Below the pieces are notes generated by a model, which saw nothing but the letters and a program-made list of their open reading frames with translations, searched no databases and had not been told where the DNA came from. A stretch of DNA of 64,000 nt from Rheinheimera sp. D18 (GTDB lineage Bacteria; Pseudomonadota; Gammaproteobacteria; Enterobacterales; Alteromonadaceae): contig NZ_CP037745.1 in NCBI RefSeq assembly GCF_004345025.1, forward strand, positions 2,108,001 through 2,172,000. The letters are read 5' to 3'. A program made the position numbers and the translations under genes. Position 1 is the stretch's first letter, and each line of letters opens with the position of its first letter. Shown here in pieces: positions 51,711 to 64,000 of the stretch.

Positions 51711-53899
<2,189 letters not shown>

Positions 53900-53903
53900 A
53901 ACT

Positions 53904-54287
53904 ATGATTAGTCAAGAAAAACTGGCAGCCTTGCAAAGTGCCTTTCCTTCATTATCACTTTTGGTTTTAATTGGCAGCCGGGCCAATGACACCGCCAGAG
54001 CAGATAGCGACTGGGATTTTGTGTTTGATTTCTCAGAACCGGATTACTTCACCCGGCTGCAATATACTGAACAGTTAAGAGCTGAATTAGCAAAATTAGC
54101 CGGCTGCACATCAAATGCAGATATTGACCTGATTGATTTTCAACATACTAATCTGGCCATGAAAGCGGCTATAGCCAACGAGGGCAAGCCTCTTATTATT
54201 ACTGACCACCGACAGTGGCATAGCTTTTTAACGGTAACCTGGCAACAACTGGAGTACTGGTATTGGGAGCGTGAGCATGCAGCTTGA
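53904..54287 (+). CDS. mntA: MntA-type nucleotidyltransferase antitoxin (MNT domain)
   Basis: 127 residues. The minimal nucleotidyltransferase motif GSxxxxxxxxxxDxD is intact: GSRANDTARADSDWD at residues 24-38 with D36 and D38 as the metal pair, and a third acidic residue in DIDLIDF (near 78). Family role: type VII antitoxin that AMPylates the partner HepT toxin. It follows pseC after four bases and overlaps hepT by 11 bases, so it is inside the pse operon. A sugar nucleotidyltransferase role is unlikely; the size and the HEPN partner are typical of MNT/HEPN pairs. Confidence 0.85.
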   Translation: MISQEKLAALQSAFPSLSLLVLIGSRANDTARADSDWDFVFDFSEPDYFTRLQYTEQLRAELAKLAGCTSNADIDLIDFQHTNLAMKAAIANEGKPLIITDHRQWHSFLTVTWQQLEYWYWEREHAA

Positions 54288-54687
54288 ACTTTATCTGGCG
54301 GAAACTGCCAGCCTGGCAGCTGATTACAAACAATTGTTAGATACAGCAGCGCTGGATATTCAACAAGGCAAACCGCTATCAAAGCTTGAACAAAACGGTA
54401 TTTTGCACTGCCTGCAGGTTTTAGCAGAAAACGCCATAGGCAAAGCCAGGCATCTGCTTAAAGCTGCAGGCCAACCTGTTCCTATATCAGCTTATGATGC
54501 GATGCAAAAACTTGCCCAATTACAAAATTGGCCAGCGACGCAGGTACAACAATGGAACGCTATTATTGGCATGCGAAACCGTATAGTGCACGAGTACATG
54601 AATATCAACATCGATCTGGTAATGCAATTGGTGGCCCAGCAAAAGTATTTGCTCATTACTGACTTTTTAATGTCCGACACCTTATGA
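54277..54687 (+). CDS. hepT: HepT-type HEPN-domain toxin (DUF86-like)
   Basis: 136 residues from the ATG at 54277 with GGGAG seven bases upstream (a GTG two codons earlier is less likely). It is all-helical with the HEPN active motif RxxxxHxY intact as RNRIVHEY (R100, H105, Y107); the tyrosine is the residue AMPylated by MntA in the characterised Shewanella pair. Family role: RNase toxin that cuts tRNA or mRNA ends. It overlaps pseF by four bases, so translation of pseF is coupled to the toxin gene, an unusual arrangement. Confidence 0.85.
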   Translation: MQLELYLAETASLAADYKQLLDTAALDIQQGKPLSKLEQNGILHCLQVLAENAIGKARHLLKAAGQPVPISAYDAMQKLAQLQNWPATQVQQWNAIIGMRNRIVHEYMNINIDLVMQLVAQQKYLLITDFLMSDTL

Positions 54688-55382
54688 ACATCGCTATAAT
54701 CCCAGCCCGAGGCGGCAGTAAACGCATCCCGCGCAAAAATATTAAAGATTTTTGCGGCCAGCCTATGCTGGCCTATCCAATTAAAGCCGCATTGCAAAGC
54801 GGTGTTATCGACAAGGTGGTGGTGTCGACCGATGATGACGAGATTGCCGCCGTAGCTCGTCACTATGGTGCTGAAGTGCCTTTTCTGCGCCGAGCGGAAC
54901 TGGCCGATGACTACAGCGGCACCAGCGCGGTAGTTCGCGATGCCATTATACAGCTTCAAGCGCTTGGTTGGCCGCTGGATTACTGCGCCTGTATATACGC
55001 AACTACGCCATTATTAACGGCCAGCATTATCCGTGACTGCCTGCAGCAGCTTACACAAAGCGACGCAGATTACGTGTTTACCAGCGCCCGCTTTTCCTTT
55101 CCTATTCAGCGCGCTCTGGTGATGACAGACAGCGGCGGCGTCGCGCCGTTTGACCCGGCCAGCATAGGTAAACGATCGCAGGATTTACCCCCAGCGTATC
55201 ATGATGCCGGTCAGCTTTACTGGGCTAAAGCATCGACCTGGCTTGATCTGCAAAAAAGTGTGTTTAGCACTAACTCACAACTTTACGAACTGCCATCGCA
55301 TCGGGTTCAGGATATCGACACACCAGATGACTGGCGGCGGGCTGAACTATTGTATCAACTGCTGCAACAAGAAGCGCCATAA
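54684..55382 (+). CDS. pseF: PseF, CMP-pseudaminic acid cytidylyltransferase
   Basis: 232 residues. The CTP-binding loop IIPARGGSKRIPRKNIKDF is at residues 4-22; STDDDEIA and the RVQDIDTPDDW C-terminal motif are typical of the CMP-sialate synthetase family. Reaction: activates pseudaminic acid with CTP, last step before transfer. It overlaps hepT by four bases (ATGA). Confidence 0.94.
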   Translation: MNIAIIPARGGSKRIPRKNIKDFCGQPMLAYPIKAALQSGVIDKVVVSTDDDEIAAVARHYGAEVPFLRRAELADDYSGTSAVVRDAIIQLQALGWPLDYCACIYATTPLLTASIIRDCLQQLTQSDADYVFTSARFSFPIQRALVMTDSGGVAPFDPASIGKRSQDLPPAYHDAGQLYWAKASTWLDLQKSVFSTNSQLYELPSHRVQDIDTPDDWRRAELLYQLLQQEAP

Positions 55383-55383
55383 C

Positions 55384-56424
55384 ATGAAGATCCTGTTTCG
55401 TGCTGATGCTTCAGTCAGGCTAGGCTCTGGCCATGTGATGCGCTGTCTAACGTTGGCTCAGGAGCTAACAGCGCTTGGCGGCGAATGTCATTTTGTCTGT
55501 CGTCAGACCGATGGCAACCTGAACGATGTTATCAGCCAGCTAGGATATCCACTTTATACTCTGACGGGCGCAGCTGACGAGCAACAGGACGCAGCTCAAA
55601 CCCTGCAGCAACTTACGCAACGCTATCAGTTGCTGATCGTCGATCACTACGCACTGGCGCAGCAATACTGCTCAGCACTGCGCCAGCGCTGCGAATATAT
55701 TATGGTTATTGACGATCTGGCTAACCGGCTGCATGACTGCGATATGCTGCTTGATCAAAACCTGCTGCCACAGGCTGAACAACGTTATGCTGAATTAGTG
55801 CCGGTACATTGCGAAAAATTGCTTGGTCCGCGCTTTGCCTTGCTTCGGCAGGAGTTTTATCAACCGGTAAAACATCCTCTGCCTAATCACATTCTGATTG
55901 GCTTTGGTGGCAGCGACGAGCAAAACTTAACCACTATGGCAATTAAAGCGCTAAAACAATTAAAGTCCGGGCTGTTTACGGCCGATATAGTAATAGGGGC
56001 AAATAATCCGTGGCGCGCTGATATAACACAGCAGTTAGCGTGCCTGCCCAATGTGCAGTTGCATGTGCAATGTAACTACATGGCAACCCTGATGTACCGG
56101 GCACGACTCATGCTTGGTGCGGGTGGAGCCAGCCATTGGGAGAGGTGTATTTGCGGCCTGCCGGGTCTGGTTGTTACCGTTGCCGAAAATCAGCAGGCGG
56201 CAACGGCTTATCTCGACCACCTTGGCGCTTGTGTCTGGTTGGGCCAGGCTGCTGAAATGTCAGCAGAGTTCTTTGCAGAGCAACTATGCTATTACCTGTC
56301 CCAACCGGCACTGTTAGACGATATTGGCCAGAGTGCCGCAGGCATAGTGCCGGCGGACGCTGGTACACCACTGGTAGCTAAGCAGATTTATGCAATGATT
56401 CGAGGGTTAAATGGCAGTAATTAA
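55384..56424 (+). CDS. pseG: PseG, UDP-sugar hydrolase
   Basis: 346 residues from the ATG at 55384, one base after the pseF stop. The opening RADASVRLGSGHVMRCLTLA is diagnostic; it is a GT-B fold with the motif GFGGSDEQNLT and the late GAGGASHWERC. Reaction: removes UDP from the 2,4-diacetamido-trideoxy-altrose intermediate. A weak ribosome site and the tight spacing suggest coupling to pseF. It overlaps pseI by 14 bases. Confidence 0.94.
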   Translation: MKILFRADASVRLGSGHVMRCLTLAQELTALGGECHFVCRQTDGNLNDVISQLGYPLYTLTGAADEQQDAAQTLQQLTQRYQLLIVDHYALAQQYCSALRQRCEYIMVIDDLANRLHDCDMLLDQNLLPQAEQRYAELVPVHCEKLLGPRFALLRQEFYQPVKHPLPNHILIGFGGSDEQNLTTMAIKALKQLKSGLFTADIVIGANNPWRADITQQLACLPNVQLHVQCNYMATLMYRARLMLGAGGASHWERCICGLPGLVVTVAENQQAATAYLDHLGACVWLGQAAEMSAEFFAEQLCYYLSQPALLDDIGQSAAGIVPADAGTPLVAKQIYAMIRGLNGSN

Positions 56425-57460
56425 ACTGGGCCAACGCGCGATAGGACCGGGAGAAGCGCCATTTATTATCGCAGAGCTGTCGGGTAACCATGATCAGTCA
56501 TTAGACAAAGCGCTGGCGATGGTAGATGCCGCTGCAGCTTGCGGCGCTGACGCCATTAAAATACAAACTTATACCGCAGACAGCATGACGCTGAATATTC
56601 AACACGGCGATTTTGTTATTCAGGACCAGGGTAATCTGTGGCAGGGACAATCACTTTATCAGCTATATCAGCTGGCCATGACCCCCTGGGACTGGCATCA
56701 GGCTATTTTTGCTCGGGCAACACAACACGGTATGCTGGCATTTAGTACGCCCTTCGACCAGACAGCAGTCGATTTTCTCGAACAGTTAAATGTACCCTGC
56801 TACAAAATTGCCTCATTTGAAAACAGCGATCACGCATTACTCACTGCAGTAGCTAGAACCGGCAAACCGGTTATTATGTCTACCGGTATGGCAACACAAA
56901 CCGAGCTGGCTGAATCGGTAGAGGTACTGCGTAAACACGGTTGCAATCAGCTTATCCTGCTGAAGTGCACCAGCCACTACCCGGCCGATCCGGTTGATGC
57001 CAATCTGGCGACAATTCCGCATTTAGCCCAACTGTTTAACTGTCAGGTTGGTTTATCTGACCATACTGCCGGCATCGGTGTAGCCGTTGCCAGTGTGGTG
57101 CTGGGCGCAACAGTCATTGAGAAACACTTTGTGCTCGACAGAAGCGAAGGCGGCGTTGACGCAGAGTTTTCCCTTGAGCCAGATGAATTTTCCGCGCTGG
57201 TGCAGGAATGCAAACGCGCTGCAGTAGCGCTGGGTAAAGTCACTTACGGCGGCACAGACAAAGAGCAGACGTCGCGTAAATACCGTCGCTCGTTATATAT
57301 TGCCGAAGATATGCAACTGGGTGATATTTTCACCCCGGCTAACCTGCGCTCAGTGCGGCCCGGCTTTGGCCTGGAGCCGAAATACCTGCCAATGTTGCTG
57401 GGTAAACCAATTAAAAAGGCGGCGGCCAAAGGCACCGCGATGAGCTGGGAGTATCTGTAG
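56411..57460 (+). CDS. pseI: PseI, pseudaminic acid synthase (NeuB family)
   Basis: 349 residues. TIM-barrel NeuB domain with IIAELSGNHDQSLDKAL (residues 16-32) and MSTGMAT, and a C-terminal SAF/antifreeze-like domain (RSLYIAEDMQLGDIFT and LRSVRPGFGLEPKYLPMLLG). Reaction: condenses the altrose derivative with phosphoenolpyruvate. It is read from a CTG-rich codon set, unlike pseB. Confidence 0.95.
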   Translation: MAVIKLGQRAIGPGEAPFIIAELSGNHDQSLDKALAMVDAAAACGADAIKIQTYTADSMTLNIQHGDFVIQDQGNLWQGQSLYQLYQLAMTPWDWHQAIFARATQHGMLAFSTPFDQTAVDFLEQLNVPCYKIASFENSDHALLTAVARTGKPVIMSTGMATQTELAESVEVLRKHGCNQLILLKCTSHYPADPVDANLATIPHLAQLFNCQVGLSDHTAGIGVAVASVVLGATVIEKHFVLDRSEGGVDAEFSLEPDEFSALVQECKRAAVALGKVTYGGTDKEQTSRKYRRSLYIAEDMQLGDIFTPANLRSVRPGFGLEPKYLPMLLGKPIKKAAAKGTAMSWEYL

Positions 57461-57464
57461 CACT

Positions 57465-58052
57465 ATGGTGGCAGCAAAGCAGTATCCCGTCAGTCAGTTT
57501 CGCCCTCTAACTAAGGCCGACCTGGAGCTGATATGGCAGTGGCGTAACCAACCGGATATCCGGCGCAATATGCACAACAACACGCCTATTAGCTGGCATG
57601 AGCACCTGGCCTGGTATGAAAAGCTGCAGTGTGATTTAAGCCGTAACGTCTTTGTGTTTTATCAGAATGAACGGCCAATAGGCGTGCTCAACTTTAACCA
57701 GCACAGCAGCGGTGTGCTGGAATGGGGCTGTTATCTGGGAGAAACCAATGTCTGGCCTGGTTCTGGCTTATTGCTGGAGATAGCGGCGCTTGATTATGCT
57801 GCTATGCAAAACGATCAGCATACATTGTATGCTGAGGTTTTATCTTTTAACCACAGCGTGCTGAAAATGCACCAGTTGTTTGGCTATCACCCGCAACCCG
57901 ACTTGCCCGGCAAGCTGAGGGATAACGCAACCTATCAGGTTAAGGTGTTTCATTATCCGTTAGCCGCCTGGCGTGCCAACCGCGACGCCGTATTAGCGCG
58001 TTTGCCAAAGCAAATTGCTGCAGCGGCCAGTTTTATTCAATTTACTCAGTAG
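57465..58052 (+). CDS. pseH: PseH-type GNAT N-acetyltransferase
   Basis: 195 residues. GNAT features are FRPLTKADLELIWQWRNQPDIRRNM at the start, IGVLNFNQ in the middle, and ETNVWPGSGLLLEIAALDYA for the acyl-CoA site. In the pathway it acetylates C4 of the aminosugar. Position after pseI is unusual for the step order but is normal in gene clusters. With the ACP cassette right behind it, a longer acyl donor is conceivable. Confidence 0.88.
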   Translation: MVAAKQYPVSQFRPLTKADLELIWQWRNQPDIRRNMHNNTPISWHEHLAWYEKLQCDLSRNVFVFYQNERPIGVLNFNQHSSGVLEWGCYLGETNVWPGSGLLLEIAALDYAAMQNDQHTLYAEVLSFNHSVLKMHQLFGYHPQPDLPGKLRDNATYQVKVFHYPLAAWRANRDAVLARLPKQIAAAASFIQFTQ

Positions 58053-58063
58053 CAGGTTTTAAC

Positions 58064-58321
58064 GTGGAACTGGAACATACTATTCGCCAAACGCTGGATC
58101 AGGTTGCCGTCATCGCAAACTGTCAATTGATTGATAACATTACCGATGACACGGTACTGCTGCAAAGCGGGCTCGACTCGCTGGGCTTCGCGATGCTGGT
58201 CGCGCAACTGGAAGAAGATTTAGGCATAGATCCGTTCAGCCAGATGCAAATAGCCGTTTATCCGCGCACTTTTGCCGAATTTGTCGGCGTTTATCGCCAG
58301 GCACTGGCAAACGGCAACTAA
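58064..58321 (+). CDS. Acyl carrier protein
   Basis: 85 residues, GTG start at 58064. The 4'-phosphopantetheine site is S39 in QSGLDSLGFAMLV; the protein is acidic. It differs from housekeeping AcpP (no DSLD(T/S)VE-type context), so it is a dedicated carrier. It is followed after five bases by an adenylate-forming ligase and then by a reductase, which together look like a loading, carrying and reducing set. Confidence 0.88.
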   Translation: MELEHTIRQTLDQVAVIANCQLIDNITDDTVLLQSGLDSLGFAMLVAQLEEDLGIDPFSQMQIAVYPRTFAEFVGVYRQALANGN

Positions 58322-58326
58322 AACCA

Positions 58327-59610
58327 ATGAATCTGCTGCAGCGGCTGCAACAAGCGCACTATAACAGCACGGCCATCAGCGCCGGTGCTGATATCAGCTA
58401 TGCGCAGTTAATAACGCAAGCGGTGCAACTCAGGCAGCAATATCCGGCGCTGCAACATCAGGCTATCGCCCTAAGCTACACCGACCTGAGCACTTTTACC
58501 TGTGCCCTGTTGGCGTTTGACGGCTGGTGCCGGGCACTTTATCTGTTACCGGATAACACTCTTCAACTGCCTGAGCACGTTATCCGCTGGCCTGAAAATA
58601 CCCCAGCCGGAACTGCAACGCCCACAGCAGAACCTACCCACTGGTATCTGGCAACATCAGGCACTACCGGTACGCCTAAATGGATAGCGCATTCATTTAC
58701 CAGCTTAAGCCGCGCCGCTAAAGCCTCAGTACAAAATGCAACATTGCACTGGGCATTATGTTATCAGCCAAGCCGTTTTGCCGGCCTGCAGGTGCTGTTG
58801 CAAAGCCTGTTATCAGGTGCAGTAATAACCGACTGCAGTAGCGGTGATTCGCAGCAGCGCTATAGCCTGATGCAGCAACACAGTGTCAATGCAGTATCGG
58901 CCACGCCCTCTTTGTGGCGGCAGTTACTGATGACAGCGCAATTAAGCGCACTGCCATTGCAACAAATAACGCTGGGCGGTGAAATTGCCGACCAGCCCTT
59001 ACTTGATACACTGGCAGCGTTATTCCCAGCCGCCCGTCTGCTACATATTTACGCCTCTACCGAAGCCGGTGTGGGTTTTGCCGTTGCCGATAAGCGTGCT
59101 GGCTTTCCAGCCAGTTGGCTAAATCAATGTCACAGCAACCTGTTGCTTAAAATCGATGCCAAGCAACATTTATGGTTAAAGCCGCCACAGCTGCCTGATA
59201 CCCGCCTAGCGTCTGCTGTTGATAGCGATGGCTATCTGGACAGCGGCGATTTAGTCACTATTGTACAAGACAGAGTTGTCTTTCTGGGCCGTGCCAGCGG
59301 TGTTATTAATGTTGGCGGTAATAAAGTTCATCCCGAGCAGGTAGAACAGGTATTGTTACAGTACCCTGCCGTGCGCCAGGCAAAGGCGTATGCCAAAGCC
59401 AGTAGCGTCCTAGGCCAGTTAGTTATCGCAGATATTGTTGTCGACACCGGTATTGACAGTAAAGCACTGCAAGCTCAGTTGGTGCGGCACTGCCAGCAAC
59501 AACTGGAGCGCTATCAAATGCCAGCCCGGTTTAATATAGTCAGCAGCTTAGTAACCAATGCGACCGGTAAGTTAAGCCGTAAGGCCGACGTAAAGGAGCC
59601 TCATGAGTAA
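58327..59610 (+). CDS. Adenylate-forming acyl ligase (AMP-binding)
   Basis: 427 residues, short for the family because the N-terminal part is reduced. Core motifs are present: A3 ATSGTTGTPKW (about residue 110), A5 YASTEAG (about 240), A7 DSGDLV, A8 FLGRASGVINVGGNKV and A10 NATGKLSRKA with the catalytic lysine. Family role: activates a carboxylic acid with ATP and loads it on CoA or on an ACP. The adjacent ACP is the likely acceptor. Substrate unknown. Confidence 0.85.
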   Translation: MNLLQRLQQAHYNSTAISAGADISYAQLITQAVQLRQQYPALQHQAIALSYTDLSTFTCALLAFDGWCRALYLLPDNTLQLPEHVIRWPENTPAGTATPTAEPTHWYLATSGTTGTPKWIAHSFTSLSRAAKASVQNATLHWALCYQPSRFAGLQVLLQSLLSGAVITDCSSGDSQQRYSLMQQHSVNAVSATPSLWRQLLMTAQLSALPLQQITLGGEIADQPLLDTLAALFPAARLLHIYASTEAGVGFAVADKRAGFPASWLNQCHSNLLLKIDAKQHLWLKPPQLPDTRLASAVDSDGYLDSGDLVTIVQDRVVFLGRASGVINVGGNKVHPEQVEQVLLQYPAVRQAKAYAKASSVLGQLVIADIVVDTGIDSKALQAQLVRHCQQQLERYQMPARFNIVSSLVTNATGKLSRKADVKEPHE

Positions 59611-60319
59611 ATTAGTGATTGTTACCGGTGCCAGCCGGGGTTTGGGCTTAGCGATATGCCGCCAATTACTGCAGGCCGGTTATAGTGTGCTGGCATTGGC
59701 AAGAACGCAAAGCGAAGAGCTAACGCAGTTACAACAGCAAGGCTTACACTTTTGCGCAGCTGATTTATCTGCACTGGATAACATTCCGGCCCTTTGTAGC
59801 GAACTAACTAAGCAATATGGCCGGCCTTATGCGCTGATTAACAACGCAGCTGTTGGTTATGATGGTGTACTGGCAACGATGCACAACACTGAGATAAACA
59901 GCTTACTTAACCTGAACATTCAGGCGCCTATCTTGCTTAGCAAGTACTTGCTAAGGCCAATGTTGTTAAACCAAAGCGGCCGTATCGTCAATATTTCGTC
60001 GATTATCGCCCGCACTGGTTTTAATGGACTAAGTGTGTACGCCGCCAGTAAAGCCGCGCTGGAAGGTTTCAGCAAATCGCTGGCGCGGGAAGTTGGCAAA
60101 GCAGGTATTACCGTGAATTGCGTTGCACCCGGCTATATGCAAACTGACATGACCAATAGCCTGCAAGGCGATAAGCTGGAAAGCGTCAAACGCCGCAGCC
60201 CGCTGGGCCGACTGGCTACACCGGATGATGCTGCGGCTGCAGTGTTATATCTACTCAGCGAGCAAGCCGCCGCTATCACAGGTACTGTGATTACTGTGGA
60301 TGCTGGTAGTACGGCCTGA
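59603..60319 (+). CDS. SDR oxidoreductase, 3-oxoacyl-ACP reductase (FabG)-like
   Basis: 238 residues, classical SDR. NADP motif TGASRGLG (residues 8-15), NNAA, serine in SSIIARTG, catalytic YAASK, and the C-terminal LGRLATPDDAAAAVLYLLSE are FabG-like. With an ACP and a ligase in front it could reduce a 3-oxoacyl-ACP to a 3-hydroxyacyl-ACP. It overlaps the ligase by eight bases. A sugar reductase is the alternative. Confidence 0.85.
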   Translation: MSKLVIVTGASRGLGLAICRQLLQAGYSVLALARTQSEELTQLQQQGLHFCAADLSALDNIPALCSELTKQYGRPYALINNAAVGYDGVLATMHNTEINSLLNLNIQAPILLSKYLLRPMLLNQSGRIVNISSIIARTGFNGLSVYAASKAALEGFSKSLAREVGKAGITVNCVAPGYMQTDMTNSLQGDKLESVKRRSPLGRLATPDDAAAAVLYLLSEQAAAITGTVITVDAGSTA

Positions 60320-61821: not shown

Positions 61822-62598
61822 CTACAGGCGCTTCAGGAAACCACCTGCAGCCACTGTAATTAAAAGTTTCGAGTCAATATCAGCGTCAACAACAAATTCA
61901 GAATGCTGCTGCAAATAAGCACTGATCGCAGTTTTTGGGCTGTTTCCAGGGTGCCATGGCCGGTCAGTAAACAGCCCTGCTGGCATATCTTCTATAAGAG
62001 TGTCGAATACGATGCAATAACTGCCTTTACTCACCAACGGTCCGTAGGCTTCCAATTCTGCCAGCACATGTTCATGGGTATGGTTAGAGTCAAGACAAAC
62101 CAGAATCCGCTGATAACCGGTCGCTGCAGCTTTCACTTGAGCAATAATTTCAGGAGCAATACTGGAGCCTTCGATCATCTCTATCTTGTGTGATAACGGA
62201 TGTTGCTCGATCGCGTCTCTGTTATGCTGACGAATATCAATGTCGATTCCAATGACTTTACGTCGGCTGCTTTTTGGATCTAATACTTGTCCGGAATTAA
62301 CCGCGTCAGTGTAATCTAATAAAGCCAGCAATGACGCGCTTATCATCAGAGAGCCGCCATGTGCAATACCGGTTTCAATAATTAGATCTGGTTTTATCTT
62401 CCAGACAAGCTCCTGTAATGCCCAAGCATCATTTGGAAACTGAATAGCTGGCCGGCCTAACCAACTAAAATTATAGGCCCACTTGTGCGGGGTTACCTCT
62501 CGAATCCAGATTCTGGACAACGCCTGCAAATCGCTATCGGATTTCAGACTTTCAATGTTGTTACGAACTTCCTGCTCAAACTTTTCAACTTCATTCAT
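61822..62598 (-). CDS. CmcI-family (cephalosporin hydroxylase-like) methyltransferase-fold protein
   Basis: 258 residues. The family run is NFSWLGRPAIQFPNDAWALQELVW then IIETGIAHGGSLMISASLLAL (SAM site), VIGIDIDIRQHNRDAI and LVCLDSNHTHEHVLAEL (metal site). Homologues are common in surface-sugar loci, probably as sugar methyltransferases despite the hydroxylase name. It overlaps the WbqC gene by eight bases and has a GGAGGG site. Substrate unknown. Confidence 0.82.
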   Translation of the reverse strand: MNEVEKFEQEVRNNIESLKSDSDLQALSRIWIREVTPHKWAYNFSWLGRPAIQFPNDAWALQELVWKIKPDLIIETGIAHGGSLMISASLLALLDYTDAVNSGQVLDPKSSRRKVIGIDIDIRQHNRDAIEQHPLSHKIEMIEGSSIAPEIIAQVKAAATGYQRILVCLDSNHTHEHVLAELEAYGPLVSKGSYCIVFDTLIEDMPAGLFTDRPWHPGNSPKTAISAYLQQHSEFVVDADIDSKLLITVAAGGFLKRL

Positions 62599-63325
62599 TT
62601 AAAAAATCCCTCCAGCATTTTGTTTTTGAGCAAATAAACCTCCGACCTTCCGCTCCCACATTCGCAACAAGATCTAAGCTTGTTACATAAGGAGTAAAAG
62701 CACCATACAACTGTGGATATGGCTCGCACATATAATTCATGTATCTCACCTGAATCCCCTCGTTTTCAAAGGCATGGTGGTTAAGGTAATTCGAAGCGCC
62801 ATGTCCGGTAATATAATTATCTGCTCCAAGTTTCTTAACAATGTCCAGCACTCTTTCGCTGCCGCTCCCACTGATATCCAGCGCATCAATGTCAATAAAT
62901 TTTTTACCTTCTGAGAGCCCAAAATATTCAATAACACTCAGCATAGATTTTTTTGCAATGTCACTAATAGTCATCAATTGAGTATCATTGCATACATTTT
63001 CTATCAAGCTGAGCGCATGTTCAAAATGAAGGCTTGTTCCAAGACTTTCGGTTATCAGTATTTTATGATGTTCTCTCCAATCCATATGACTACTTGGCTC
63101 AACCATATTGATTGGAGTTCCCAGTTTAAATTTTTTCAGGGGGACAGTCAGCCACTGAGGTGTATCCGACATCTTTAATTGCACTCGGTTGACAAAACTA
63201 CCTTTTGAAAATTGAACGTCATCATAAAAGACAACGATATCTGCTAGTTTAATTTGCTCTAATAGTCCGACCCAGGGGAACAACATTGGTTGAGTAATGA
63301 CTACACTTTTTGTTGAACCTGCCAT
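62591..63325 (-). CDS. WbqC-family protein
   Basis: 244 residues. The family start VVITQPMLFPWVGLLEQIKLADIVVFYDDVQFSKGSFVNRV (in overlapping pieces) and the YLNHHAF and YPQLYGAFTPYVTSLDL segments are typical of WbqC-like proteins of O-antigen and flagellar glycan loci. Their biochemical activity is not established, though a role in aminosugar acylation or chain assembly has been suggested. It overlaps the formyltransferase gene by 25 bases. Confidence 0.85.
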   Translation of the reverse strand: MAGSTKSVVITQPMLFPWVGLLEQIKLADIVVFYDDVQFSKGSFVNRVQLKMSDTPQWLTVPLKKFKLGTPINMVEPSSHMDWREHHKILITESLGTSLHFEHALSLIENVCNDTQLMTISDIAKKSMLSVIEYFGLSEGKKFIDIDALDISGSGSERVLDIVKKLGADNYITGHGASNYLNHHAFENEGIQVRYMNYMCEPYPQLYGAFTPYVTSLDLVANVGAEGRRFICSKTKCWRDFLNE

Positions 63326-63939
63326 TCAATCGCCTCAGACATAACAAAACAAGAAAACAAGCGCTCCAACTCAACAGAAAGTTGTGGTACTTCATTAGCG
63401 CAATAGCCCAAAGTCATTTCAAACCAAAGTAAAGTGAGATAGACCTTTTGGGAAAACGATACTCTCAACCAGTCATCCAATCCGATGGAATGATTCATTG
63501 GATGCCCCAGTTGAGCTACAATTTCGCCCCCATCCATCGTTTCATCAACTTTATGCAGCGTTGCGCCAAGCCTACCGTGCTTTGCTGAATACGCTCTTTC
63601 GACAGCCTTAAATCCAGGATACTCAGGCAATAGCGAAGGATGAATATTAAACACTTGCATTTTTCCAAAGAGATCAGCGGTAACCATACGGCTGAATAAC
63701 AATAAACACGCCCCTATATTCTCATCATTACACATTTGATAAGCACGCTTTGAGAATGCAGTGGCGTCTTTCTCTGCGATTCTTTCATGCCTGAGACTGA
63801 GCTCAGCAGCAACATCTTCCGCTTGGCATTTCCGATCGGTGATCATCATTAAATCCAAAGGCCTGCCCGCTTGTTGCCAAACTCTGACTGCATATTGAAC
63901 CGTCGCACCACCACCAGAACATATAACTGATAGTTTCAC
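63301..63939 (-). CDS. PurN-like formyltransferase
   Basis: 212 residues from a GTG at 63939 preceded by a purine-rich AAGGGGGG site; an ATG 13 codons upstream has none. The folate-dependent formyltransferase triad is present: N and H in FNIHPSLLPEYPG and D in DETMDGGEIVAQ. The N-terminal CSGGGATVQYAV corresponds to the Rossmann loop of PurN. In a sugar locus it probably N-formylates an amino sugar on a nucleotide carrier. It opens a three-gene minus-strand unit that faces the pse operon. The 61 bases to the window end show no gene. Confidence 0.82.
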   Translation of the reverse strand: MKLSVICSGGGATVQYAVRVWQQAGRPLDLMMITDRKCQAEDVAAELSLRHERIAEKDATAFSKRAYQMCNDENIGACLLLFSRMVTADLFGKMQVFNIHPSLLPEYPGFKAVERAYSAKHGRLGATLHKVDETMDGGEIVAQLGHPMNHSIGLDDWLRVSFSQKVYLTLLWFEMTLGYCANEVPQLSVELERLFSCFVMSEAIEWQVQQKV

Positions 63940-64000
63940 ATTCCCCCCTTGCAGAATTGTCTGAGATATCCAGTTCAACCACTAATCAAAGAAGAACAGA

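Follow-up and report, generated by a model that had tools for sequence, protein, structure and literature searches.

A portable ACP, ligase and ketoreductase cassette beside a distinct PseH in a Rheinheimera flagellin-glycosylation island, with a predicted role in non-acetyl N-acylation of pseudaminic acid

The pseudaminic acid (Pse) operon of Rheinheimera sp. D18 carries, directly behind pseH, a trio of genes for a dedicated acyl carrier protein (ACP), an adenylate-forming ligase and a ketoreductase. This trio is a stable, portable cassette, and judged from sequence comparison its most likely role is to provide acyl-ACP as the donor in the N-acylation of an amino sugar. The best reading of the locus is a predicted Pse5Ac7-acyl product bearing a short hydroxyacyl group, and the flagellum is likely to carry a tag other than the usual acetyl. 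Flagellin sugars are surface-exposed and often needed for filament assembly, and if the cassette does make a defined non-acetyl acyl group, an unusual sugar could be predicted for many species at once simply from the presence of the trio in their genomes.

The trio and its island

Within the window (the whole stretch of 64,000 nucleotides that was analyzed), the pse operon is divergent from a flagellin gene and encodes, in this order, PseB, PseC, an MNT/HEPN pair, PseF, PseG, PseI, PseH, the ACP, the AMP-ligase and the ketoreductase; the pse and trio genes located below are all on the + strand. PseB, the inverting UDP-GlcNAc 4,6-dehydratase (51723..52757), scores 544.6 bits with TIGR03589 (cut-off 407.75), the pseudaminic acid synthase PseI (56411..57460) 497.3 bits with TIGR03586 (cut-off 340.25), and the PseH-type GNAT N-acyltransferase (57465..58052) 129.6 bits with TIGR03585 (cut-off 93.1). 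Because these three exceed NCBIfam equivalog cut-offs, the neighbours of the trio are real pse genes. The aminotransferase PseC (52754..53899) was assigned by its operon position and by BLAST matches to its counterpart in relatives, and the CMP-Pse synthetase PseF (54684..55382) and UDP-sugar hydrolase PseG (55381..56424, an approximate start, the mechanical ORF beginning further upstream) by position and conserved synteny. The same island runs on past the end of the window with sugar and methyltransferase genes and two terminal ORFs, which we read as putative Maf-type flagellin transferases, a label of our own based on their sequences. Since pse genes, flagellin and putative Maf-type ORFs occur together, we regard the region as a flagellin-glycosylation island.

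Two further gene groups were seen in the window. A nucleotidyltransferase (MNT) and HepT/HEPN pair at 53904-54687, likely a toxin-antitoxin system, interrupts the pse operon, where it touches PseC on one side and PseF on the other; in relatives PseF directly follows PseC, and ORFs resembling the pair lie just 3′ of the trio in two Paraglaciecola loci (L076 and L092). On the minus strand at 61822-63978, mutually overlapping genes for a CmcI-type methyltransferase, a WbqC-like protein and a formyltransferase-like protein are convergent to the pse operon.

The initial annotation described three overlapping or near-touching genes for carrier, loader and reducer, and the ORFs, Pfam matches and conserved catalytic residues all confirm it. 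The genes stand in tandem, with 11 nt between the end of pseH (58052) and the ACP gene, 5 nt between ACP and ligase, and an overlap of 8 nt between ligase and ketoreductase. The ACP (58064..58321, 85 aa, GTG start) was identified by PF00550 (PP-binding, 26.9 bits, cut-off 20.8) and by alignment of relatives; its phosphopantetheine attachment site Ser39 (codon 58178..58180) is invariant in 20 relatives and lies in a GLDSLG block that is invariant across the 19-20 relatives aligned. The second gene (58327..59610) encodes a short adenylate-forming (ANL) acyl-ACP ligase of 427 aa, a length also seen in some MenE-type enzymes, which matches both AMP-binding (PF00501) and AMP-binding_C (PF13193) and has EntE and MenE as its best PDB matches at low similarity. 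Residues S111-T113 of its P-loop TSGTTGTPK (58654..58680), the acidic A5/A7 residues E246 and D308, the A8 hinge R322 and the catalytic A10 Lys415 (codon 59569..59571) are invariant in 20 relatives, and the P-loop as a whole and a GGNK motif are likewise conserved in the alignment. The third gene (59603..60319, 238 aa) encodes a FabG/PhaB-type SDR ketoreductase (PF00106/PF13561, adh_short and adh_short_C2), whose best NCBIfam match, TIGR01830, remains under its cut-off; the catalytic set N105, S133, Y146 and K150 is invariant in 19 relatives, the Y146-x3-K150 active-site motif being encoded at 60038..60052.

The description of the ACP as dedicated also holds: a separate FAS AcpP is encoded elsewhere in the genome, placed between FabF and FabG with FabD alongside and FabH nearby, and an unrelated cluster contains another two ACPs. 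That the trio might simply be housekeeping fatty-acid genes was rejected, the FAS genes being located elsewhere. It had also been claimed that no ketosynthase is present, which is true of the island; the nearest one in the genome lies at a distance of ~215 kb, and the cluster with FAS FabH and FabF at ~445 kb. The existence of FabH and FabF elsewhere leaves room for a scheme in which a starter acid, loaded by the ligase onto the dedicated ACP, undergoes a single round of extension by a housekeeping ketosynthase, and the ketoreductase then yields a 3-hydroxy or 3,5-dihydroxy acyl group. Such a scheme would explain why both a ligase and a ketoreductase are present, and 3,5-dihydroxyhexanamido sugars are known (PMC3210612); however, besides the island itself, no protein was recognized as a ketosynthase among the trio neighbours scanned in other genomes, and the housekeeping ketosynthases would need to accept a divergent ACP. 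We consider the scheme quite improbable.

Conservation and acyltransferase partners of the cassette

When 84,980 species genomes were scanned, 254 relatives emerged, and 79 loci were kept; these were chosen by two ligase peptide patterns and represent this ligase subfamily rather than all ligases. An ACP gene lies just 5′ of the ligase in every one of the 79 loci, and a ketoreductase gene just 3′ in all 76 whose contig extends past the ligase, so that chance adjacency of the three genes can be rejected. The cassette loci come from Pseudomonadota, Chlorobi, Planctomycetes, Campylobacterota and other groups. In the genus of the window, a strong ligase relative was found in 10 out of 31 genomes, with the order PseH, ACP, ligase, ketoreductase in nearly all of the regions read. 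A class-wide ACP search of a wider sample, 369 gammaproteobacterial genomes, looked for versions in which a ketosynthase had been swapped in, and matched the trio ACP in two genomes only, the Rheinheimera genome itself and one other.

The neighbour of the trio is mostly PseH, but the acyltransferase changes from locus to locus. Two loci (L054, L055) hold a dTDP-Fuc3N/Qui3N-type set, RmlB-RmlA-FdtA-ACP-ligase-ketoreductase-hexapeptide transferase-FdtB, with no PseH in between, and a third (L113) has the same arrangement up to the point where its contig stops. The hexapeptide transferase of L113 scores best with LpxA and LpxD, below cut-off; LpxA and LpxD transfer 3-hydroxyacyl groups from ACP. 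Other loci place AAC(3)-like or GNAT proteins near the trio, and hexapeptide repeats were detected in 14 of 32 flanking proteins, taken mostly from loci without PseH. Because the trio stays whole while its acyltransferase partner is exchanged, we interpret the cassette as an acyl-donor supply, and are confident that it would serve a sugar N-acyltransferase of one kind or another.

Two other features of these loci are worth recording. A related ORF of ~486 aa, a putative CDP-glycerol glycerophosphotransferase, directly follows the ketoreductase in many pse loci (L065, L070, L072, L074, L084, L090, L096, L097 and L104) and is missing from the window. In a Zixiibacteriota contig (L101, 4112-4852), the ORF before the trio appears to be a fusion of a methylmalonyl-CoA-epimerase-like and an ACP-like domain.

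A separate PseH clade and the predicted route to N7

The trio-linked PseH proteins form a clade of 44 rows with support of 96/94, and in the only row scored as lacking the trio (L085) the contig breaks off within the ligase. Trio-linked PseH also exists outside this clade, thus the trio and PseH must have joined more than once. Trio-linked PseH was set against 10 PseH whose pse loci lack the trio, using contacts taken from the H. pylori enzyme (PMC4363471). Residues of the UDP-sugar site (R27, M36, W50 and Y90) are common to both groups and keep the equivalents of the H. pylori acceptor residues Arg30, Met39, Phe52 and Tyr94. In contrast, strand β4 and the P-loop differ in the trio-linked proteins by F89 to C, A92 to G, P93 to E and an inserted W97, and position 98, often Lys or Arg without the trio, is always Pro with it. 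Position 89 corresponds to Ile93 of H. pylori, which bonds the thioester carbonyl (PMC4363471). These changes around the acetyl-CoA site fit an altered donor, although such differences could reflect ancestry rather than function. The distinct clade, with changes around the acetyl-CoA site and the same UDP-sugar residues, points to PseH as the likely transferase. The initial annotation had named PseH or an unlisted transferase for handing the acyl group to an aminosugar, and this suggestion and its expectation of a non-acetyl N-acyl Pse are supported as predictions.

The predicted route would thus begin with the ligase, which would adenylate a small carboxylic acid and attach it to the dedicated ACP through its phosphopantetheine, where the ketoreductase would set a 3-hydroxyl on the bound acyl group or finish a 3-oxo group. 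The adjacent variant PseH, our proposed user of acyl-ACP on the strength of its clade and donor-site changes, would then take the acyl group over from ACP and acylate the 4-amine of UDP-4-amino-4,6-dideoxy-β-L-AltNAc. The amine on which PseH works ends up as N7 of Pse, therefore the predicted product is Pse5Ac7-acyl: PseG, PseI and PseF would lead to a CMP-Pse with N-acetyl at C5 and a non-acetyl acyl group at C7, which the Maf-type transferases would place on flagellin. We infer acyl-ACP as the donor, the order of these steps and the N7 position; that PseH passes on the ACP-bound acyl group to give an N7-acylated Pse seems probable to us.

A different assignment leaves PseH with acetyl-CoA, making Pse5Ac7Ac, and lets the trio serve either a second amino group or the acylation of a hydroxyl (O-acylation), for instance on a further aminosugar encoded downstream in the island, where genes look from their sequences like putative CDP-sugar genes and a DegT-type aminotransferase. 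Vibrio sp. CK2-1 (L112) fits such an arrangement, since its PseH groups with a PseH from a locus without the trio, and the trio sits instead by an AAC(3)-like protein. Yet both in this genome and in relatives pseH and the cassette are immediate neighbours within one operon, the downstream glycan genes differ between genomes, and trio-linked PseH is a separate clade with changes around the donor site, all of which makes the assignment unlikely in our view. For PseH as the user of acyl-ACP, a broader evolutionary picture may be drawn, in which the separate PseH clade gave up acetyl-CoA in favour of an acyl group carried by a dedicated ACP and was co-inherited with a mobile cassette that makes one short hydroxyacyl group and has been plugged into unrelated GNAT, LpxA/LpxD-like hexapeptide and AAC(3)-like acyltransferases in several phyla. 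We offer this picture as a serious but still tentative possibility. Provided that the cassette does make a defined non-acetyl acyl group, trio-linked PseH would offer a convenient test case of how a GNAT moved from CoA to carrier-protein donors.

The acyl group and comparison with known systems

The presence of a reductase in the window suggests, by analogy with Pseudomonas syringae, a 3-hydroxyacyl group, with the ligase in the place of a ketosynthase. In P. syringae, an ACP, the reductase VioR, the ketosynthase VioS and the transferase VioB go with N-3-hydroxybutyryl viosamine (Qui4N) on flagellin, and a vioR mutant loses the modified sugar (PMC3927599). Compared by description, both islands combine a dedicated ACP, a FabG-type reductase and an acyltransferase for a flagellin aminosugar, but the acyl chain of P. 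syringae comes from ketosynthase III (VioS) instead of a ligase and its sugar is Qui4N; no such ketosynthase occurs in the Rheinheimera island. The parallels to Shewanella and Pseudomonas drawn in the initial annotation hold in part: P. syringae does join ACP and reductase to a 3-hydroxybutyryl product, but with ketosynthase III and no ligase, and the sfm operon of S. oneidensis has a reductase and neither ACP nor ligase (PMC3765264). Closer parallels are found in Aeromonas group II, in enterobacterial islands and in the RfbK/RfbL system of Vibrio cholerae O1 (PMC7874193, PMC4875605, PMC12208996).

On this analogy 3-hydroxybutyryl, with a predicted Pse residue of 360.153 Da, is a plausible first guess that is not strongly favoured over other short hydroxy acids, and as a specific assignment it is one we make only hesitantly. 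The initial annotation had proposed reduction of acetoacetyl to 3-hydroxybutyryl, and this point could not be established. Pse5Ac7(R3Hb) of Acinetobacter baumannii (psaABCGHF) and Shigella boydii O7 is also a Pse with a non-acetyl group at N7, the product type predicted here, although it belongs to a capsule or O antigen and not to flagellin. Its published loci work with six pse-type genes, with no dedicated ACP, ligase or reductase listed, so 3-hydroxybutyryl needs no cassette (PMC9676051, PMC3726653). Furthermore, the genes near the trio include none that would provide a free 3-oxo acid, which counts against our best explanation, and in Aeromonas AH-3, a group II strain whose island has an analogous trio, the Pse derivative has a mass of 376.14 Da (PMC7874193), which matches Pse5Ac7Ac + C2H4O2 and not 3-hydroxybutyryl.

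The same cassette may therefore carry another acid. The ligase could load a ready-made polar short acid such as dihydroxybutyrate or 3-hydroxy-3-methylbutyrate, and the ketoreductase would trim it or set its hydroxyl, giving a Pse residue of ~374-376 Da rather than 360. Our calculated mass for Pse5Ac7(dihydroxybutyryl), the same as for Pse5Ac7Ac + C2H4O2, is 376.148, close to the AH-3 value, and Qui4N in a Shewanella polysaccharide bears 3-hydroxy-3-methylbutyrate or 3-hydroxybutyrate (PMC3210612). There is also a precedent in V. cholerae O1, where the ACP-ligase pair RfbL/RfbK is reported for 2,4-dihydroxybutanoate (PMC12208996). Compared by description, this tetronate system (PMC12208996, PMC3441752) likewise relies on a carrier and an adenylating ligase to provide the acyl part of an aminosugar amide, and here too a carrier protein and an adenylating ligase lie beside sugar genes; it differs in acting on a perosamine O antigen and in that no FabG-type reductase is noted in the text consulted. 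That said, a FabG-type reductase would be superfluous for a ready-made hydroxy acid, and the presumed Aeromonas trio behind the mass match is non-orthologous in ligase and ACP and has extra LuxE/LuxC absent here. We regard a ready-made polar acid as possible but doubtful.

Trios of this kind have already been listed in Aeromonas and enterobacterial flagellin islands (PMC7874193, PMC4875605); our literature search found neither assays of such acyl-loading genes nor a paper describing the cassette in Rheinheimera or Alishewanella. The Enterobacteriaceae islands, compared by description, hold the same three functional types (Acp, CaiC, FabG) but also LuxE and LuxC, and a liposugar was proposed by the authors (PMC4875605). 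Three genomes in our set (G608, G164 and G703) match the published Aeromonas group II layout, the genus being inferred from published gene order, with a PseH-like gene, ACP, reductase, an ORF of 447-452 aa that reads by its motifs, judged by eye, as a putative adenylate-forming ligase, LuxE, and an ORF of 420-424 aa taken for a putative LuxC. As in Rheinheimera, group II has ACP, reductase and AMP-ligase (orf1-3) in a pse flagellin island, directly after the PseH-like gene in G608 and G164, but the order is ACP-ketoreductase-ligase rather than ACP-ligase-ketoreductase, with LuxE/LuxC adjacent. Profile scores of the Aeromonas-type parts against the families of the window were 19.6 bits for the ligase, 3.1 bits for the ACP and 143.8 bits for the reductase, the last matching only as a general FabG-type enzyme. 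Orthology was rejected on these ligase and ACP scores; the two trios thus follow the same logic with parts that are not orthologous.

A third, distant version, ACP-ketoreductase-ligase before PseH, is found in Alteromonadaceae (L062, L178-L180); in L062 the ligase is ~30% identical and a short ORF was read as the ACP. With several versions at hand, similar trios either came together on more than one occasion or are separated by very deep divergence, and the Rheinheimera trio is a distinct variant of an already known type of system. Lastly, formyltransferase-like and PIG-L deacetylase-like genes stand beside PseH in L044 (7764-9142) and also in L071, L072, L075, L086 and L099, which suggests further acyl variants of Pse.
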